A stretch of 64,000 nt of DNA from Owenweeksia hongkongensis DSM 17368. GTDB lineage: Bacteria; Bacteroidota; Bacteroidia; Flavobacteriales; Schleiferiaceae. Positions 2,857-51,451 of this stretch are shown in pieces. Under the pieces are notes generated by a model. That model searched no databases. It saw only the letters and a list, made by a program, of their open reading frames with translations, and was not told the origin of the DNA. Made by a program: the position numbers and the translations under genes. Each line of letters begins with the position of its first letter. Position 1 is the first letter of the stretch. The stretch lies in assembly GCF_000236705.1 (NCBI RefSeq), contig NC_016599.1, positions 1,798,001 to 1,862,000 on the forward strand, read 5' to 3'.

Positions 2857-3618
2857 ATGAAAAAACTTGGATTATTCCTTTTTGCTTTGGCCTTCACCTC
2901 ACTCGGGTTAACAGCGCAAACTGCTGATGAAATAATTAATGAATATCACCAAGTAACTGGTGGAGCTGATAATTGGAAAAAAATTAAAGGCGTACAAATG
3001 GATGCCAAAACAAATCAAGGGGGGATGGAAATTCCGGTAACGATAATATATATGCAGGATGGCCGTGAAATGGTTTCATACAATTTGCAAGGGCAAGAAA
3101 TTGTATTAACCGCTTACGATGGCAAATCACTGTGGAGCACAAACTTTCAAACCATGAAGCCCGAAAAAGCAGATGAAGAAGCCCTGATAAACAAAAAAAA
3201 AGAAGACGATGATTTCCCTGACCCACTTATTGACTATAAAAAGAAAGGCTACGAAGCTGAGTATGTGGGTAAAGAAACCATAGAAGGAACGGAATGCCAC
3301 AAAGTGAAACTCACCAAAAAACCACAAATCGTTGATGGACAGGAAGTAGATAATATTGAGTACTACTTTTTTGACAACGAAAACAATGTGCTAATTGCTG
3401 TAGAAAGTGAAATCACTAGTGGCCCCATCAAAGGTTCTATCGCCCAGATATTGTATAGTGACTACCAGGAAGTTGAGGGACTTTATTTTCCGTTTAGTAT
3501 TTCTCAGGGTGTAAAAGGCCAAGGTGCACAACCTCTTGAAATTACTACAGTTACTGTGAATCCAGATGTTTCGGAGCGTTCTTTTAGTTTTCCTGAAGAA
3601 GCACCAAGCGAAGAGTAA
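2857..3618 (+). CDS. Exported LolA-like / outer-membrane lipoprotein-sorting-like protein
   Basis: A 253-aa protein with a clear signal peptide (MKKLGLFLFALAFTSLGLTAQ, cleavage after LTA-Q expected). The mature part resembles the LolA/LppX beta-sheet fold seen in Bacteroidota periplasmic proteins: VQMDAKTNQGGMEIPVTIIY, a YDGKSLW turn, GTECHKVKLT and YYFFDNENN. There is no lipobox cysteine. Function is probably binding of a hydrophobic ligand in the periplasm, but this is only fold-level inference. It is followed after 37 bp by the sortilin/BNR gene in the same direction and both probably read from the sigma-54-like promoter upstream. Confidence 0.7.
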   Translation: MKKLGLFLFALAFTSLGLTAQTADEIINEYHQVTGGADNWKKIKGVQMDAKTNQGGMEIPVTIIYMQDGREMVSYNLQGQEIVLTAYDGKSLWSTNFQTMKPEKADEEALINKKKEDDDFPDPLIDYKKKGYEAEYVGKETIEGTECHKVKLTKKPQIVDGQEVDNIEYYFFDNENNVLIAVESEITSGPIKGSIAQILYSDYQEVEGLYFPFSISQGVKGQGAQPLEITTVTVNPDVSERSFSFPEEAPSEE

Positions 3619-3655: not shown

Positions 3656-6600
3656 ATGTTTAAACGTATTTTTTTTGCGGGTTTATCCTTGTGCCTATAT
3701 ACAACTGCTGTAGGACAAGATTCTAATCCGGTCGCAAACCTTTCCGGCAAAGAACTTTTTGGAGACATCAAAGCCAGACAAATTGGACCTGCACTTATGA
3801 GCGGCAGGGTGACTGACCTTGAACCTCATCCAACTGATGCACGCGTACTTTATGTAGGCACCGCTGGTGGTGGTGTATGGAAAAGCAGTGATGGTGGAGC
3901 CACCGTTTACTCCGTTTTTGATGACTATCCACAATCTATTGGAAATATTGCGGTAGACCCAAATAATCCACAAACGGTATGGGTAGGAACTGGCGAAATA
4001 TGGACACGAAATAGCACCTCTATAGGTTACGGGCTTTACAAAACTACCGATGGCGGAAATAACTGGGATGAAGTTCCGGGTTTTGAAAAAAGTGAACGCA
4101 TTAGCAGCATTGAAATAAACCCCAACAATAGTGATGAAATATACATTGGTGTGCTTGGTGCTCTATGGGGCGATAGCGAAAACCGAGGCGTATATAAAAC
4201 TACAGATGGTGGTAAAACCTGGAATAAAATTTTCTATATAGGCCCGGGAACTGGTGTAAGTGATTTGGTGATGGACCTTACTAATCCGAACATTCTTTAT
4301 GCATCTATGTGGGAATTTAGGAGAACCGGTTGGTCGTTTAATTCTGGTGGTGAAAAAAGTGCTCTTTATAAATCTACCGATGGTGGTAAAAACTGGAAGA
4401 AGATTCATAAGGGCTTCCCCTCTGGTAAATTAGGCCGAATTGCCTTTGCCATGGCACCATCCAATTCACAAATTTTATACACGGCTATAGAGGCCGAGAA
4501 AGATTCAGAAAAAGGACTTTACCGCTCCGATGATGGAGGCGCTAGTTGGAAACACCTCAACAATGATTTCGGGATTGTGGTGCGCCCATTCTATTTCTCA
4601 CGAATTGTAGTAGACCCACGCAATCCAGATATTTTGGTAAAAGGAGGACTGTTTGGCTCATTGAGTCGCGATGGAGGAAAGACCTTTAAAAGTCTGGGAA
4701 ATATGCATGCCGACATCCATGACATAACGTATGATATCAAAGATTCGGACCGAATGTACGTTGGAACAGATGGTGGACTTTACCGCTCATGGGATGCCGG
4801 AACCACCATGGAAATGGTTGAAAACATGCCTGTTTCTCAATTTTATCATATTGATGTGGATGATAAAACCCCCTACAATGTATATGGTGGCCTTCAGGAT
4901 AATGGCTCGTGGTACGGCCCCACTTCTTCACCCGGTGGTGTGGAGGCACGTGATTGGAACCGAATTGGTTATGGAGACGGCTTTCGAGTACTAAAGCACC
5001 CTACCAAAGACATTATCTATTCTGAAATGCAGGGAGCTGAAAACGTGTGGCGCTATGACATTAAGAAAAACCAACAAAAAACGGTGCAACCGCTAAAAGC
5101 TGAGGGTGACCCTAAACTCCGCTTTAACTGGAATGCCCCTATGACAACCAGTGCTCACAAACCTGACAGACTTTACATAGGTAGCCAGTTTGTACATCGC
5201 TCAGACGATATGGGCGATACATGGGAGAAAGTATCTCCAGACCTGACAACCAATGACCCAAAAAAGCAGAATCAGGAGAATTCAGGAGGTCTTTCAAAAG
5301 ATAACTCGGGAGCGGAAAACCACACTACCATTTTTACTATTGCCGAGTCACCATTGGATGAAAATATTCTTTGGGTTGGTACAGATGATGGCAATGTGCA
5401 ACTGACTACTGATGGCGGGAAAAAGTGGAAAAACCTAGTAGGGAACATTGAAGGATTGCCCAAAAACACTTGGGTATATCATATTGAAGCAAGCCATCAT
5501 GATAAAGGCACGGCTTACGCTGTGTTTGACGGGCACACCAAAAATGATATGAATACTTATGTGTATAAGACCTCTGATTATGGAAAAACGTGGAAATCAT
5601 TGGCCACCCCAAATATTGAAGGTTTTGCCAGAGCTTTTCAAGAGGATTTAAAAAACCCAAATCTTCTGTTTTTAGGAACAGAGCTTGGCCTTTACATTAG
5701 TATAGATGGAGGAACTTCTTGGAAAAAGTTCACCAACAATTTTCCCGCAACAGCGGTGCACTACCTCACCATGCAAAAAAATACGCTTGACCTTGTAGCA
5801 GGTACCCATGGCCGTGGAGTTATCATTATTGATGACGTGGCTATTTTACGTGAGCTCACTCCAGAGAATCTGGAGAAAGATGTTCACTTCTTTAGCACCA
5901 AACCAGCAATGATGATGGAGGAGAGCGGATTTGGTGGAGCCAGTACAGAAACGCAGTTTGTGGGCCCCAACCCTACTCGCCAAGCCGTAATTTCATACTA
6001 CCTCAAAAAGCGCCACACGTTTGGGAAGATGACCATGGAAATTCAGGATATGGATGGTAATCTCATTTCTGAAATTGGCCCCAATAAATCGCGGGGAATA
6101 AACATAGTAACTTGGAATTATGCCACTCGTCAACCCAAAGTGGCCAAAGGAAAGTCGTTTGCCTACGGTGGATTTGTCTCTCCAAACGTAGAAGCTGGCA
6201 CATATAAGGCTGTTCTCAAAAAAGGGAAAGAAACCTATGAAACTGAATTTACCGTTTTGAACGATTCCACCTCATTGATTACACCTGAAGAACGGAAAAT
6301 GAATCGTGAGTTTACCATGGAGCTTTACAATATGACAGAGCAATTGGCCTACATGGTTTATGAAATAGATGAAACCATTGCCACAGCCGAAAAGCTTAAG
6401 AAAGCCGACCCCGCTGCTGCTAAAACTGCTCAGGCGGTGATTGACGACCTCAACGGATTAAAGAAAACCTTGGTAACCACCACTGGTGACAATTATGTAG
6501 GCCGTGCCGAAAATGAGCTTCGTGAAGACATGCTGGATTTGTATAGCAAAATTGCCACCCGCTTTGACAAGCCAACACCCGCTGAATATGACAATCTAAA

Positions 6601-32376: not shown

Positions 32377-32406
32377 AGTACATTTCTACCGAACGCAAAA
32401 ACTCCC

Positions 32407-32892
32407 TTGCCTAGAATTGAACTGAAAACAGAAATCAAGGCAAGAAAAGAAATAGTATTTGACCTTTCACGAAGCATTGATTTACATAAAATATCGACAG
32501 AACAAACCGATGAAACTGCCATCGCTGGCAGAACAAGTGGTTTAATTGAACTAAACGAGTTTGTTACTTGGAGAGCAAAACACTTTGGGGTTTATCAAAA
32601 TTTAACCTCTCATATAACTGAGTTCAATCACCCTAATTACTTTGTGGATGAAATGAAACAAGGGATTTTTAAAAAATTCCGCCATGAGCATCATTTCTCG
32701 ATTTCAGACAAAATCACAATAATGATTGATATTTTCGAATTCGAATCACCATTAGGGTTTTTAGAGCAAATTGCCAATAAACTTTTCTTAAAAAAGTACA
32801 TGGCAAAACTTTTAGAAAAGAGAAATCAAACCATCAAGGACTTTGCTGAATCAGGCAAATGGAAAAAAGTAATAAGCACTAAATTTGACTGA
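32407..32892 (+). CDS. SRPBCC-type (START-fold) protein
   Basis: 161 aa, starting with TTG (codes for MPRIELKTEIKAR); the sequence upstream of it in this frame lacks an ATG. RKEIVFDLSRSIDLHK, then GLIELNEFVTWRAKHFGV and the KITIMIDIFEFESPLG strand match the SRPBCC ligand-binding fold often called cell-division-inhibitor-like. The ligand is unknown. 30 bp after the protease gene. Confidence 0.75.
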   Translation: MPRIELKTEIKARKEIVFDLSRSIDLHKISTEQTDETAIAGRTSGLIELNEFVTWRAKHFGVYQNLTSHITEFNHPNYFVDEMKQGIFKKFRHEHHFSISDKITIMIDIFEFESPLGFLEQIANKLFLKKYMAKLLEKRNQTIKDFAESGKWKKVISTKFD

Positions 32893-32933
32893 TTCATTCT
32901 TGCTAAACAACAAACCACAAACACCTCCTCTTT

Positions 32934-41869: not shown

Positions 41870-42655
41870 ATGGCAGAACATTGCGACAAAAAGAAAAGAG
41901 TAGTGGTAAAAGTTGGTACCAATGTAATGACCAACAAGGATAATCGCATTGTAGGCCCCATTTTGAAAAGTTTGGTACATCAAATTGCTAAGCTTTATGA
42001 AGAGGATGTACTTACAGTTTTAGTTTCCTCAGGTTCCGCTATTGCGGGAAAAGAAGTGTTGGGTGACAGCGAAATTCAAGATCCTACCACACGTAGACAG
42101 GTATTTTCTGCTGTGGGTCAACCGCGAATGATGCGCCATTACTACAGTATTTTTCATGATTATGGAATGCGCTGTGCACAAGTACTTGCCACCAAGCGTG
42201 ACTTTGCGCCAGGTAAGCACCGTGACAATATGATAAACTGCTATGAAGCACTTTTAAGCGAAGGGATAATTCCTATTGCAAATGAAGATGATGCCGTTTC
42301 GCTTACCATGTCTATGTTTTCAGACAATGACGAGTTGGCCAGCCTGGTGGCGGAATTGATTGATGCAGATATGCTCATCCTATTGACGGACACAGATGGG
42401 CTTTTTACCGGTCATCCCGATCATGATGATTCAAAAATTATCCGTCATGTACAAATTGACCAAGATGTAGAACAATACATTCAGGAAAGTGAAAAAGGCG
42501 AAGGCGAAGGCCGTGGTGGAATGGAGAGCAAACTAGGTGTTGCAAAAAGTACCGCTGCCAAAGACATTCCTACCTATATAGCCAACGGTAAACGCGAAAA
42601 TGTAATTGTGGATATAGTGCAAGGCAAAGAAGTGGGAACCCGATTTACAGCATAG
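41870..42655 (+). CDS. proB: Glutamate 5-kinase, without PUA domain
   Basis: 261 aa of the amino-acid kinase fold: VVVKVGTNVMTNKD, VSSGSAIAGKEVL, ANEDDAVS, LLTDTDGLFTGHP and GRGGMESKLGVAKSTA (catalytic GG-MxxKxxA loop). The C-terminal PUA domain of enterobacterial ProB (about 370 aa) is absent, as in shorter variants. It phosphorylates glutamate, first step of proline synthesis. Followed by a 286-bp gap with the structured element before proA. Confidence 0.93.
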   Translation: MAEHCDKKKRVVVKVGTNVMTNKDNRIVGPILKSLVHQIAKLYEEDVLTVLVSSGSAIAGKEVLGDSEIQDPTTRRQVFSAVGQPRMMRHYYSIFHDYGMRCAQVLATKRDFAPGKHRDNMINCYEALLSEGIIPIANEDDAVSLTMSMFSDNDELASLVAELIDADMLILLTDTDGLFTGHPDHDDSKIIRHVQIDQDVEQYIQESEKGEGEGRGGMESKLGVAKSTAAKDIPTYIANGKRENVIVDIVQGKEVGTRFTA

Positions 42656-42678
42656 TAAAATGCAAGTTCCGATGGATC

Positions 42679-42807
42679 GGCATTCAAGCAATAAATGTTC
42701 TGATTTAAATTCATCTTTAGAGAGACCGAGAAGCTCCTAAGGATTGAGGAGATCACTCGGCCGAACTTAAGCTGAGTAACAAGCAGGTTATCCATTTCTT
42801 GCAAGCC
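42679..42807 (+). ncRNA. Structured 129-nt element, copy 1 (candidate RNA motif)
   Basis: A predicted four-helix structure. P1: 24-nt arms 42679-42702 and 42784-42807, 16 Watson-Crick plus 2 wobble pairs. P2: 42709-42717 with 42769-42777, 8 of 9 pairs. P3: CCGAG (42726-42730) with CTCGG (42756-42760). P4: CTCC (42734-42737) with GGAG (42748-42751), capped by TAAGGATTGA. The core words TAGAGAGAC, AAGGATTGAGGAGATCAC and GCCGAACTTA are shared with copy 2. A T-rich tail and a GCACC-TGA-GGTGC hairpin follow. The orientation is inferred from co-direction with proB and proA. It may also be a mobile palindromic repeat. Confidence 0.6.
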
Positions 42808-42941
42808 TAGACTTTTTAGTTCGTTTTGGGGCACCTGAGGTGCAACCGAAAGCATAAGCACTTTGCGCATAATGCCAAAATGAACATTAAAAAATTAAAT
42901 AAAACCAGTGGCAATAAAAGACCACATCAAAAAAGATACAA

Positions 42942-44141
42942 ATGAGATTATTACAGACTGAACTTAAGAACAAAGTGTTGCAGTCTATGATGAATATTCT
43001 TGACAAAAGACGTGAAGACATTATAGCTGCCAATCAAAAGGATTTGGACGCATTTGACAAAAACGACCAGGCTCTTTACGACAGACTGATCGTAAACGAA
43101 GCCAAGGTTGATGGTATGATCACAGCTGTAAAAGAAGTGATGCAGCAGGATGATCCCGTTGGAGAAGTTATCTCACAGAGAAAATTGGAAAACGGCCTAA
43201 ACATCATCAATAAGACAGCACCTTTCGGCACCATCATGATTATTTATGAGTCTCGCCCCGATGTTACCATTGAAGCAGCAGTTTTAGCCTTTAAGGCGAA
43301 TAGCAAAATATTACTAAAAGGTGGTAAAGAAGCCTTTCATAGCAATGTTGTTTTGGTAGAATGCTGGCATGAAGCTCTTACTGAAAATGGCCTTGATAAA
43401 GACTGGATCCAGATGCTTCAGATGAATCGTGAGGAAACTCAGGAATTCTTAAGAAACCCAAGCCAAAAGCTGGATTTGATTGTTCCGCGTGGTGGCGAAC
43501 GATTGATAGAATTTGTAAAACAACACGCTAAATGCGCAGTTCTGGTGAGCGGTAGAGGAAACAACTTCCTTTATGTACATAAGGATGCAGATTGGCAGCA
43601 AGCCCTTAAAGTGATTGTAAATGCAAAGACAGCTAAGATTTCCGCCTGCAATGCACTTGACAAAATTTTGGTGGATGAAAACCTTCCTGAATTTGAAAGT
43701 CACCTGAAAGAACTTCAAAAAGTGCTGAAGGAAAATAAGGTAGAAATATTGGTAGATGATAAAGTGAGTGGCATCTTGAATGATGAGCAAACCATCACCG
43801 ATAAGGCAATTTGGAAAGAAGAGTTTTTAGCACTTAAAAGTGTGGTTGGTTCAGTGAGCAATCCCAATGAAGCCATTGATCTGATCAACGAAAATAGCGG
43901 TGGCCACTCCAGCACTATTATGACAAAAGATGCCAGCACCGCAGAAACTTTTATGGAACAGGTAGACAGCGCAGCGGTGTATCACAATGCCAGCACACGT
44001 TTTACTGATGGTGGCTCAATGGGCGTTGGTGCCGAGTTGGCTATTAGCACAGATAAACTTCATCATCGTGGACCATTAGGCCTTAAGCAATTGGTGACTA
44101 ACAAATATTATGTTCATGGAGATGGACAGATAAGAGAATAG
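42942..44141 (+). CDS. proA: Glutamate-5-semialdehyde dehydrogenase (gamma-glutamyl phosphate reductase)
   Basis: 399 aa aldehyde-dehydrogenase fold. YESRPDVTIEAAVLAFKAN, GGKEAFHSN and IVPRGGERLIEFVK are conserved; the catalytic cysteine is C236 in AKISACNALDK, and GAELAISTDKLHHRGPLGLK closes the family pattern. It reduces gamma-glutamyl phosphate to the semialdehyde for ProC. Separated from proB by 286 bp, unlike the tight proC-proB spacing. Confidence 0.95.
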   Translation: MRLLQTELKNKVLQSMMNILDKRREDIIAANQKDLDAFDKNDQALYDRLIVNEAKVDGMITAVKEVMQQDDPVGEVISQRKLENGLNIINKTAPFGTIMIIYESRPDVTIEAAVLAFKANSKILLKGGKEAFHSNVVLVECWHEALTENGLDKDWIQMLQMNREETQEFLRNPSQKLDLIVPRGGERLIEFVKQHAKCAVLVSGRGNNFLYVHKDADWQQALKVIVNAKTAKISACNALDKILVDENLPEFESHLKELQKVLKENKVEILVDDKVSGILNDEQTITDKAIWKEEFLALKSVVGSVSNPNEAIDLINENSGGHSSTIMTKDASTAETFMEQVDSAAVYHNASTRFTDGGSMGVGAELAISTDKLHHRGPLGLKQLVTNKYYVHGDGQIRE

Positions 44142-49315: not shown

Positions 49316-50209
49316 ATGAAAAAAATATTCTTCCTTTTTGGCTTTACTGTCCTGCTACTAAGTAGCTGTGGCCGTTTTGCCAATGAAGACACCAACACAA
49401 CTTCAGCAGAAAAAACAGAAGGAAAAGCACCACGAATCGTTTGCTTGGCCAAGCAATACAATGAAATAATTTTTGCGCTTGGCGCGGAAAAAGACCTTGT
49501 GGCAGTGGACCTTTCCAGCACTTATCCGCCCAAAATAAAAGATCTCACCACTGTGGGTTATCATCGTGCGCTTAGTGCGGAAGGCATCCTCAGCATGAAA
49601 CCGGATTTGATTATTCATGACAATAACATTGGGCCGGAACATGTGGTAACGCAATTGGAAAGTTTAAAAATCCCAATGAAAACCTTTGGTGAGTATGATC
49701 ATACCATTGAAGGTACTGAAGAGCTGATGCGCGAAATGGGCACCTATTTTCATAAAGAAGAAAAAGCAGAAGAACTTTGCGCCAAGCTTGAAGCTGACAT
49801 GTCTGAAGCACTTGAGGCAGCAAAAGCCTATACCGACACACCAAGTGTGGTTGTTATCCATTTTGGGCGCGCCTCAAACATTTATCTTACAGTAACCAAA
49901 AACAGTACTGCTGGTAAAATGATAGAATGGGCAGGTGGAAAAATGGCCATCGATGGCGAACGTGGAATGCGTCACCTTTCCTCGCCTGAGCTTATCGCAA
50001 AAGCAAACCCTGATGTGATTCTACTTACCGACTTTGGCTATGATCGCCTGGGCACACAGCAAAAGATTGAAGAGCTACCAGGCGTTGCCGGAACCAATGC
50101 CGCAAAAAATGCTCGCATTTATCGTGTGGAAGAACATGACCTAATTTACATCGGCCCACGTACCGGTGAGAATGTACAGTTTCTTCAAGAGTTGATTCAT
50201 AAAAAGTAA
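49316..50209 (+). CDS. hmuT: Heme-type ABC transporter substrate-binding lipoprotein
   Basis: 297 aa with lipobox LLLSSC (C18). TroA/FhuD-like two-lobe fold with the long helix (AEELCAKLEADMSEALEAAKAY). RIVCLAKQYNEIIFALGA, SSTYPPKIKDLTTVGYHRAL, SAEGILSMKPDLII, RHLSSPELIAKANPDVILL and DLIYIGPRTGENV are close to the HmuT pattern, where a YxxAL tyrosine can bind heme. A BtuF-like cobalamin role cannot be excluded. Followed by the 129-nt structured element and then hmuU. Confidence 0.85.
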   Translation: MKKIFFLFGFTVLLLSSCGRFANEDTNTTSAEKTEGKAPRIVCLAKQYNEIIFALGAEKDLVAVDLSSTYPPKIKDLTTVGYHRALSAEGILSMKPDLIIHDNNIGPEHVVTQLESLKIPMKTFGEYDHTIEGTEELMREMGTYFHKEEKAEELCAKLEADMSEALEAAKAYTDTPSVVVIHFGRASNIYLTVTKNSTAGKMIEWAGGKMAIDGERGMRHLSSPELIAKANPDVILLTDFGYDRLGTQQKIEELPGVAGTNAAKNARIYRVEEHDLIYIGPRTGENVQFLQELIHKK

Positions 50210-50229
50210 TTGCCTTCCTGAAAAGGATT

Positions 50230-50358
50230 GGCCTTCAACAAAATGACAAACTGAATGAAGCTCCTCCTTAGAGAGACTGGGAAGCTCCGAAGGATTGAGG
50301 AGATCACCCAGCCGAACTTAGGAAGAGCAAAAGGCAGATTATCATTTTGTTGTAAGCC
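50230..50358 (+). ncRNA. Structured 129-nt element, copy 2 (candidate RNA motif)
   Basis: Aligns without gaps to copy 1. P1: 50230-50253 with 50335-50358, 20 of 24 pairs including CAACAAAATGA with TCATTTTGTTG. P2: 50260-50268 with 50320-50328, 8 of 9 pairs. P3: CTGGG (50277-50281) with CCCAG (50307-50311). P4: CTCC (50285-50288) with GGAG (50299-50302). Relative to copy 1, pairs in P1, P2 and P3 changed on both sides. A tail with CTTGACC...GGTCAAG follows to about 50400. Orientation inferred from hmuT/hmuU direction. Confidence 0.6.
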
Positions 50359-50434
50359 TTGACCTTTTTGGTTCTTTTTGGGTCAAGCCAAAAACGAACA
50401 ATAAACAATTTGAAAGAAAATATTAAATCACTTT

Positions 50435-51451
50435 ATGAAGAAATTGACGCTCATACCTGTCATGCTATCCATGATTCTTCTCATCTCTATTTTCCTCTCC
50501 ATGCGTTTTGGCGCCATCAATTTGACTTGGGAAGAAATACAAGAGGGGTTTACTCAGCTTTTCTCTGGTGGGGAAGTTGGCCTGAATGCTCGCATTTTTG
50601 CTGAGTTGCGCTTGCCGCGAGTTTTACTTTGTGTAATTACCGGAGCAAGTTTGGCCGTGGGAGGCGTTTTAATGCAGGCTCTTTTCCGCAATCCCATTGT
50701 AGAACCAGGACTTGTTGGAACCAGCAGCGGAGCGGCTTTTGGAGCTTCGCTGTATTTTGTGTTGGGTTCAGTTTTGAGTTTTAATGCCGGAGAATGGACG
50801 CTGCCCATTGCGGCTTGCCTTGGTGGAATTATCGCTACTTATTTAGTTTTTGTGCTCAGTGGCTCGTTTCGCTCGCGTGCTTCCATTGTAGGTTTGCTCC
50901 TTACGGGAATTGCCATCAATGCGCTTTTCCTTAGCGGAATTGGTTTCCTCTCCTACATTGCCCGCGATCCTCAGGCACGCTCCATCACCTTTTGGAATTT
51001 AGGTACTATTTCGGGAGCCAATTGGCATTCCGTTTTCATAGTTGGAGTAAGCACCATTGCTTGTGCTTTATTAGGGCTTCGCTATACCAAATCCCTAAAC
51101 GCCTTGATGATGGGCGAGGACGAAGCGCAGCTTATTGGGGTAAACATCAAACGCCTAAAACTGGAAGTGCTGACCATCAACGTCATTATCGTTTCTGTGG
51201 CAACGGCCTTTACGGGAGTTATAAGTTTTGTGGGCCTTATTGTACCACACATCCTCCGCATGATGGGCGGTTCGGATAATCGTTATTTGTTGCTCAACGG
51301 TGTGCTCCTTGGCGGAATTGTAGTGACCTTGGCTGACCTGATTGCCCGCATGAGTCTGCGCCCCGCAGAATTGCCCATTGGTATTGTAACTTCTGTTGTG
51401 GGCGTTCCTGTTTTCATCTTTCTATTACGAAAAGGCAAATTCTATTTCTGA
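50435..51451 (+). CDS. hmuU: Heme/iron ABC transporter permease (FecCD family)
   Basis: 338 aa with about 9-10 membrane helices. LRLPRVLLCVITGASLAVGG, MQALFRNPIVEPGLVGTSSG and the C-terminal GVISFVGLIVPHILRMMGG coupling region are diagnostic of FecCD/BtuC/HmuU permeases. It sits 76 bp after the structured element and its stop overlaps the hmuV start (TGATG). Confidence 0.92.
   Translation: MKKLTLIPVMLSMILLISIFLSMRFGAINLTWEEIQEGFTQLFSGGEVGLNARIFAELRLPRVLLCVITGASLAVGGVLMQALFRNPIVEPGLVGTSSGAAFGASLYFVLGSVLSFNAGEWTLPIAACLGGIIATYLVFVLSGSFRSRASIVGLLLTGIAINALFLSGIGFLSYIARDPQARSITFWNLGTISGANWHSVFIVGVSTIACALLGLRYTKSLNALMMGEDEAQLIGVNIKRLKLEVLTINVIIVSVATAFTGVISFVGLIVPHILRMMGGSDNRYLLLNGVLLGGIVVTLADLIARMSLRPAELPIGIVTSVVGVPVFIFLLRKGKFYF

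Follow-up and report, generated by a model that had tools for sequence, protein, structure and literature searches.

An intergenic element of about 175–212 bases, apparently undescribed, constrained in its structure and mobile, occurs twice in the 64,000-nt stretch analysed here of the genome of the marine bacterium Owenweeksia hongkongensis DSM 17368 (the window, positions 1798001–1862000 of the single-contig genome of 4,000,057 bases), and is one of several kinds that have a common tail. One strand of the element can form an elaborate hairpin with a second, small one after it. The first copy (copy A) lies in an operon that we take to hold proline genes and the second (copy B) in one that is presumably for cobalamin uptake, the neighbouring genes being recognized from their open reading frames (ORFs). 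The element belongs to a known kind, the mobile palindromic intergenic repeats; what is new is an RNA-like conservation that those repeats, as far as we know, do not usually show. On balance, we consider it probable that the element is mobile without being autonomous and that selection maintains its fold. The coordinates of the features are collected in Table 1.

Table 1. The two window copies and their neighbouring genes, with two related units elsewhere in the same genome (window positions, except where contig C1 is named)
Feature	Position	Strand	Basis or remark
Whole element, copy A (type I)	42674..42885	+	Excess of the proB/proA gap (286 nt) over that of G001 (74 nt), 212, equals the interval
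Copy A, 129-nt long hairpin, helices with conserved internal loops	42679..42807	+	Model R1 match of 133.3 bits (copy A among the six model sequences); pair tables
Copy A, conserved core: internal loop AGA/GAA, stem, loop GAA/ATCA, tip hairpin	42717..42769	+	Invariant or near-invariant alignment columns
Copy A, tail	42807..42885	+	Foot CTAGAC 42807–42812 (altered); arms 42819–42829 and 42875–42885; compared with 45 tails
Copy A, tail-loop replacement, 45 nt where a 6-nt loop is expected	42830..42874	+	One of 4 copies without a 6-nt-loop hairpin
Whole element, copy B (type I), in the btuF-like/btuC-like gap	50225..50399	+	G015 (btuC 85% identical) without such a gap
Copy B, 129-nt long hairpin	50230..50358	+	Model R1 match of 139 bits (copy B among the six model sequences)
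Copy B, tail	50358..50399	+	Foot CTTGAC 50358–50363; arms 50371–50381 and 50388–50399; loop GTCAAG 50382–50387 complementary to the foot
proB, upstream of copy A	41870..42655	+	ORF; name by recognition and from the original prediction
proA, downstream of copy A	42942..44141	+	ORF; relatives 96–71% identical; name by recognition and from the original prediction
btuF-like binding protein, upstream of copy B	49316..50209	+	ORF; name by recognition
btuC-like permease, downstream of copy B	50435..51451	+	ORF; name by recognition
Type II unit L146	C1:349904	-	Same tail, different core; common to G001 (L151)
Type II unit L148	C1:566742	+	Same tail, different core

The original prediction, made from the letters of the window, held that the 129-nt stretch at 42679–42807 aligns without gaps to 50230–50358 and that the arms of its helices differ by compensatory changes. 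The alignment was reproduced, with 97/129 positions identical, and all six named changes are real, being exactly the two-sided changes found between copies A and B: pairs 10–120 (G-C to C-G), 14–116 (T-A to A-T), 31–99 (A-T to G-C), 38–92 (T-A to C-G), 49–81 (C-G to T-A) and 51–79 (A-T to G-C). When partners were shuffled 20,000 times, the mean number of such changes was 0.36 and the maximum 4. The unit extends beyond these 129 nt: a short GGAYN precedes the long hairpin, and a tail hairpin comes after it. A motif of the element, AAGGATTGAGGAGATCAC, occurs twice in the window when up to three mismatches are allowed (0.07 expected). The tip helix CTCC/GGAG is invariant between copies A and B, and its covariation support comes from relatives. 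Neither window copy is perfect, since 6 pairs of the 41-pair structure are non-standard in one or both of them. Folded alone and compared with shuffles, copy A gains modestly (z -1.8 on the + strand and -2.9 on the - strand) and copy B clearly (z -5.7 and -8.0), both folding better on the minus strand. Because its tail loop is 45 nt long instead of 6 and its foot is altered, copy A is perhaps damaged; the 45 nt that take the place of the loop are partly palindromic (GCACCTGAGGTGC). The window's own copies may be weakly constrained or decaying.

A model search, as the original prediction had suggested, found relatives in several genera, some of them distant within the phylum, alike in fold and different in sequence. 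The model, built from six copies and termed R1, gave eight rows at six places in the Owenweeksia genome, two of the rows being opposite-strand echoes; the weakest place (L021, 62.3 bits) was accepted on the grounds that its conserved loops are present and its tail matches with 2 mismatches. An exact motif scan of genome contigs yielded eight stretches, of which Draconibacterium accounts for six and Maribellus for one, the last being identical to a contig of the genus mate G001. In six genomes chosen for the exact core motif, R1 gave 4–15 match rows each, opposite-strand echoes and fragments included, with 15 in D. mangrovi. Matches were found in 9/196 genomes of an order-wide sample and in at least 1/395 of a phylum-wide sample, the one being Owenweeksia itself and the count a lower bound owing to the stricter filters of that scan. 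The distribution of the family is patchy, and the element is often present in multiple copies. A motif match with one mismatch in G077 (L004) was set aside as chance, the surrounding sequence being missing and R1 having no match in that genome. In G006, the copies (L115, L120–L128) lie in or adjoin tandem-repeat arrays of about 105 bp, and several are at contig ends.

Comparison of the copies gave the architecture of the long hairpin. The front GGAYN is present in six of the seven distinct copies of the Owenweeksia genus, and the hairpin of about 130 nt that follows starts with GGCC or GGCA and is built of nearly symmetrical pairs. A GGC/GCC clamp is succeeded by a long helix P1 of free sequence, then by P2 and P3, then by the inner loop AGA/GAA, which is flanked by G-C pairs, and finally by a stem of about five pairs, the 3x4 loop GAA/ATCA and the tip. 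Non-canonical positions were also seen by eye to change together (TAGTGAGA with CGAAC, TAGTAAGA with CGCAC). A protein-coding origin was rejected, since most matches measure 121–132 nt, no reading frame is common to them and their arms covary.

To count pairing, we used an alignment (A6) of 55 rows from 49 sources, hand-picked among the available loci, many of its rows being close relatives; from the six-genome scan it takes copies that have a locus, and from G006 it takes two copies. The counts on 49 copies, for pairing and for wobble alike, leave aside 4 opposite-strand echoes and 2 duplicates, which the 55-row count includes. Among the 49 copies, the share of paired cells is 92.3% (of 1994), where shuffling gives a mean of 69.9% and at most 72.2, and two-sided changes occur in 37/41 pairs (shuffled mean 26.8, maximum 31). 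The structure was derived from six copies and the rows were fitted to it, a procedure biased towards pairing and, for the + strand, towards G·T. A second count, on the 53 distinct rows of the 55, gave 92.4% paired and a covariation of 0.618 versus 0.194. Sliding the partners by 1–3 columns lowers pairing to 33–50%. Two lines of evidence are independent of the structure fit, namely covariation in the tail, a part that the model does not cover, and the energies of sequences folded singly. Compensatory changes thus exceed chance, as is expected of a structure-constrained element or structured RNA, and the fold is under selection. Further copies with conserved pairing, on which the original prediction depended, therefore exist, and its reading of the stretch as a structured RNA or a structure-dependent mobile repeat gains support both from covariation in 49 copies of several genera and from the empty proA gap of relatives described below.

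The same prediction had offered the Flavo-1 motif (RF01705) or another Rfam family as an identity, which was not borne out. A cmscan search of Rfam 15 (4227 families) at gathering thresholds gave no match in the window and none in ten related loci. Under laxer limits, the sole match of copy A up to E 5 was the miRNA family mir-7386 (E 0.82, in the tail), with Flavo-1 absent; the sole match of the relative L042 up to E 1 was Six3os1_3 (E 0.58), and a Parabacteroides stretch had no match up to E 2. Flavo-1 and other described RNA families are therefore unsupported; the element resembles Flavo-1 in being a structured intergenic element and differs in having no match to it at the gathering threshold. 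Within the literature searched (titles and the starts of abstracts), no description of the element was found.

The second hairpin provides evidence outside the model. The closing GCC is followed by the foot CTTGAN and, beyond a T-rich spacer, by the tail hairpin, whose loop NTCAAG is complementary to the foot. In 45 of the 49 rows (copy A and three G038 copies were left out of the tail count), 259/270 foot–loop cells pair, compared with a shuffled mean of 231.7 and maximum of 243. The variable last position of the foot is paired in 42/45 copies (shuffled mean 21.8, maximum 34), by C-G (15), T-A (17), A-T (9) and G-T (1), and foot position 5 is paired in 41/45, inside the shuffled range (maximum 42). 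No unpaired bases stand beside the tail loop and there is no linker, so that one of the two, foot–loop pairing or full tail stem, must stay incomplete; we infer that the two are alternatives rather than a stable pseudoknot.

Wobble pairs and folding energies were used to ask which strand carries the fold. The ratio of G·T to A·C is 96:3 in Draconibacterium and Maribellus and only 9:7 in the Owenweeksia genus, which thus has no + bias; the remaining genomes of the order, with two copies from G006 counted in, give 34:4. By the energy of unaligned sequences, the + strand folds better in 30/31 full-length Draconibacterium and Maribellus copies, in 14/22 full-length copies outside these genera and the Owenweeksia genus, and in 5/8 rows of the Owenweeksia genus, where the minus strand is better in copies A and B and in the weak L021; in G006, the minus strand is better in 7/8 copies. 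We take + to be the probable working strand for most of the family, with the Owenweeksia genus and G006 not showing the bias. Such a preference in most relatives fits RNA and is compatible with single-stranded DNA (ssDNA) too. Template-switching correction of hairpins is a known process, and a plain palindromic repeat in which template switching during replication keeps the arms complementary, with no selection on the fold, would suit both the copies of the Owenweeksia genus without wobble bias and the G006 copies that fold better on the minus strand. It predicts no excess of G·T over A·C, against the 96:3 and 34:4 of the relatives, and neither conserved unpaired loops nor foot–loop covariation in the tail. 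The bias and the loops argue against this process for the family as a whole, for which we give it a very small chance, and it may make a local contribution.

Mobility was assessed at orthologous sites. We found proA in four of the nine relatives asked, and the gap before it is without the element in 4/4 (G001, G015, G005 and G011), which is the behaviour of a mobile repeat. The proB–proA gap is 74 nt in G001 (proA 96% identical) and 286 nt in Owenweeksia, and the difference of 212 nt corresponds exactly to the stretch from GGATC to the end of the tail hairpin. On the right, the flanking sequence begins again with ATTAAAA in both genomes; the left flank is 18 nt in both with only 6/18 bases matching, so that the left end rests on length and on the comparison of copies. 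Copy A is an insertion whose ends can be defined. No duplication of the target is evident, and the gap arithmetic would admit one only if flanking bases had been lost as well. Presence and absence at orthologous sites with defined ends mark it as a mobile element. For copy B, btuC was found in two of the nine relatives, and the one good match (G015, 85% identical) lacks such a gap.

The operons of the window copies, concerned with proline and cobalamin uptake as far as gene names given by recognition go, could suggest a metabolite riboswitch or an attenuator of these genes. Other copies, however, lie beside different ORFs, recognized exopolysaccharide genes among them, the window copies stand between genes and not in a 5′ leader, and no consistent T-run is seen by eye behind the tail in the displayed copies. 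On the diversity of context and the position between genes we rejected this explanation, which retains next to no probability.

The tail is also found on other cores. One form of it, searched in four genomes of the genus, occurs at seven places in Owenweeksia and six in G001 and was not found in G002 and G003. The core of copies A and B (type I) is missing from two of the seven and from four of the six. Three distinct units of a second type (type II), one of them in both genomes, begin with GGCCT, end with GCC-TTGA and span 125–131 nt. The type II units of the Owenweeksia genus match each other (best blastn values 1.7e-8 and 8.8e-6). The G001 unit L149 has the tail and is missing the GGCC front. 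In Draconibacterium, another core of about 130 nt, its front and tail the same, is joined head to head to type I in a unit of about 420 nt with a tail at each end. We extracted 15 such composites from 25 Draconibacterium and Maribellus loci, and the partner core folds better on its own + strand in 15/15; by eye, it has short motifs at places matching those of Owenweeksia type II, with a best blastn value of 0.016, which is not significant. At L042, L047, L069 and twelve other loci of these genera the partner core lies upstream of type I, no more than about 290 nt away, and in some copies the head-to-head junction is itself a hairpin. In G084, which is of a different family of the order, type I stands head to head with the unit of another core (contig 119, ~5357–5719, L133), so the paired arrangement has recurred there.

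Three records of Parabacteroides distasonis also match the tail. Two of them, from one strain (NZ_OY725748.1, L182 ~2880–3045, and NZ_OY725754.1, L183), carry a further core with a GGCCTC front, which R1 does not recognize. In both records this core adjoins 'smalltalk' and HU genes on its two sides, and in one it neighbours annotated exopolysaccharide genes. These observations allow a wider reading, which we put forward tentatively: a modular, Bacteroidota-wide class in which different folded RNA or ssDNA cores of about 130 nt would be interchangeable passengers on one set of ends, with selection for the fold acting on cores and ends alike and movement depending on the alternation of foot–loop pairing and tail stem, the ends being mostly GGCC at the front and, at the back, the CTTGAN foot with the NTCAAG-loop tail hairpin. 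We know of no mobile-repeat family that works as modular cores on shared switching ends. Two further gaps of the genus differ in content. Between two conserved genes, window positions 32377–32932 contain a 161-amino-acid ORF in Owenweeksia, and the corresponding region of the genus mate (L056, 4705–5290) has other sequence including a type I unit; this is an intergenic hot spot. The gap before the gene starting MFLEVQNI (L054/L015) holds a type II unit in G001 and different sequence in Owenweeksia, and adjoins a repeat of the GCGCAGAG type.

The copies are intergenic and not randomly oriented. Among 50 copies placed by our own ORF calls (>=100 amino acids; 3 copies had no neighbour on one or both sides), the upstream gene is co-directional in 36 and opposite in 12 (p 0.0007), and copies between co-directional genes are sense in 23 cases and antisense in 8 (p 0.011). 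The neighbouring ORFs vary from copy to copy. At two sites common to Owenweeksia and G001 (one type I, one type II), element and tail differ at 5/360 positions against 189/2800 in the flanks (Fisher p 6.5e-6), a test that counts upstream flanks only. At the type I site taken alone, the nearest 295 nt (7 differences) compared with the element (1/178) give p 0.27, which is not significant. The downstream flanks are less alike (287/300; 218/302, the second partly misaligned).

Judged from these alignments, conservation at the shared sites would favour function or homogenization, and it speaks against a mere parasite, which would not need to be better conserved than its upstream flanks. It is the main support for a resident functional host RNA, whose transcript would protect the 3′ end of the upstream message, mark a processing site in the manner of a REP-like stabilizer, or act as a small RNA, with mobility belonging to its history. 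The preference for the sense orientation and the wobble bias in relatives point the same way. Against such a role stand the varying ORF neighbours and patchy distribution, the absence of the proB–proA copy from 4/4 relatives with proA and the broken tail of copy A; moreover, the comparison covers two sites with their upstream flanks, one of them without significance in its near flank, and gene conversion could also keep copies alike. We consider a resident RNA rather unlikely, while allowing it an appreciable share of the probability.

The integron recombination site attC is a structure-conserved, sequence-variable long hairpin that acts on one strand and has RYYYAAC/GTTRRRY boxes at the hairpin base. 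The present element is like it in being a long hairpin with its structure kept and its sequence free, and an attC-like site folded as ssDNA would agree with structure conserved beyond sequence, with one strand favoured in most relatives, with the position behind a co-directional gene and with several co-oriented copies on one contig (G102 contig 45). However, conservation here lies in the inner loops and the separate tail, in contrast to the hairpin base of attC, and the proB–proA insertion consists of the element alone, with no gene. An attC-like site is accordingly improbable. The front and back of the element read GGAYN-GGCC/GGCA and GCC-TTGAN. On G102 contig 45, the copies (181 to 205 kb, L050/L051) lie among what look like exopolysaccharide genes, some of them partial and with a common inserted stretch of about 30 nt.

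We return to the preferred reading, that of a non-autonomous mobile element whose fold is selected, and propose how it might work. The unit would be the fold of one strand: GGAYN, the hairpin of about 130 nt, the CTTGAN foot, the T-rich spacer and the tail hairpin. An enzyme supplied in trans would recognize the shared ends, above all the tail, and would move the element as a folded single strand, either RNA or ssDNA, for which the loops of the long hairpin could be a second recognition site. Since no linker separates them, the foot–loop pairing and the tail stem would alternate as a switch. Copies within operons would form stable hairpins in the message, with a possible effect on neighbouring genes.

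No mobilizing gene was found among the families searched (PF01797 and PF00078). Genes for Y1 transposases (PF01797) are present in 12/15 element-bearing genomes and were not found in G021, G038 and G084; none of the 26 PF01797 loci checked has a core or tail nearby, and a RAYT/Y1 partner was rejected for this lack of linkage. Reverse transcriptase (PF00078) was not found in 9/14 element-bearing genomes, Owenweeksia included, and was likewise rejected as the partner. The RNA-like fold and the sense preference behind genes would suit a retroelement or group II intron derivative that moves by reverse transcription of its RNA, but the nine genomes in which the enzyme was not found include single-contig Owenweeksia and D. 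mangrovi with its 15 match rows, and no Rfam intron was matched; such an origin is very improbable.

Several known systems resemble the element in part. REP and BIME sequences with their RAYT (Y1 HUH) enzymes are dispersed intergenic palindromes, short and tagged with GTAG/CGTC, for which movement in trans as a single folded strand has been proposed. The likeness extends to their partly inverted pairs, comparable to the head-to-head Draconibacterium units. REPs are reported to be 20–40 bp long (PMC3733652), and the present element is instead a hairpin of about 130 nt with a tail, its helices covarying around fixed inner loops. It also differs in that the association of RAYT systems with a Y1 gene was not seen in the 26 loci. 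The ERIC (IRU) sequences of enterobacteria are imperfect palindromes of about 127 bp, intergenic, with internal insertions and sequence-conserved arms. Size, imperfect palindrome, position between genes and internal insertions are alike, whereas the arms of the present element covary. The E. coli collection carries ERIC, and copy B had no match in it by blastn up to E 1e-5. The ends of IS200/IS605-type elements work as a folded single strand with a terminal hairpin and a short foot sequence, without target duplication, and in them a guide sequence pairs with a cleavage site of the transposase TnpA. The present element is similar in its terminal hairpin, its short foot, the proposed folded single strand and the lack of an evident target duplication; here, however, the foot pairs with the hairpin loop within the tail and not with a flanking cleavage site, and the Y1 genes of the 12/15 bearers show no linkage to it.

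Intergenic repeats of bacteria are mostly regarded as repeats of sequence. In this element the arms are free in sequence, and the fold, inner loops and tail are kept across orders, which is the signature of a functional RNA, yet the element is inserted into operons. It offers a clear case in which to test two ideas, that such repeats are moved in the form of folded single strands and that they act on host messages. The covariance model can be used for annotating these elements, which may account for unannotated operon gaps in marine and gut Bacteroidota.

Cargo of a phage or plasmid was rejected as an explanation: IMG/VR gave no match for one core and two tail patterns, a Draconibacterium unit had neither a phage nor a plasmid match, and copy B had no phage match and, among plasmids, no full-length match, the three Parabacteroides records matching it over 41 bases of the tail. 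A solitary hairpin that resembles the tail and has no foot lies in an unannotated part of an ssDNA phage of the Microviridae (MH572371.1, L184 801–834), where it may be chance or a borrowed host signal.
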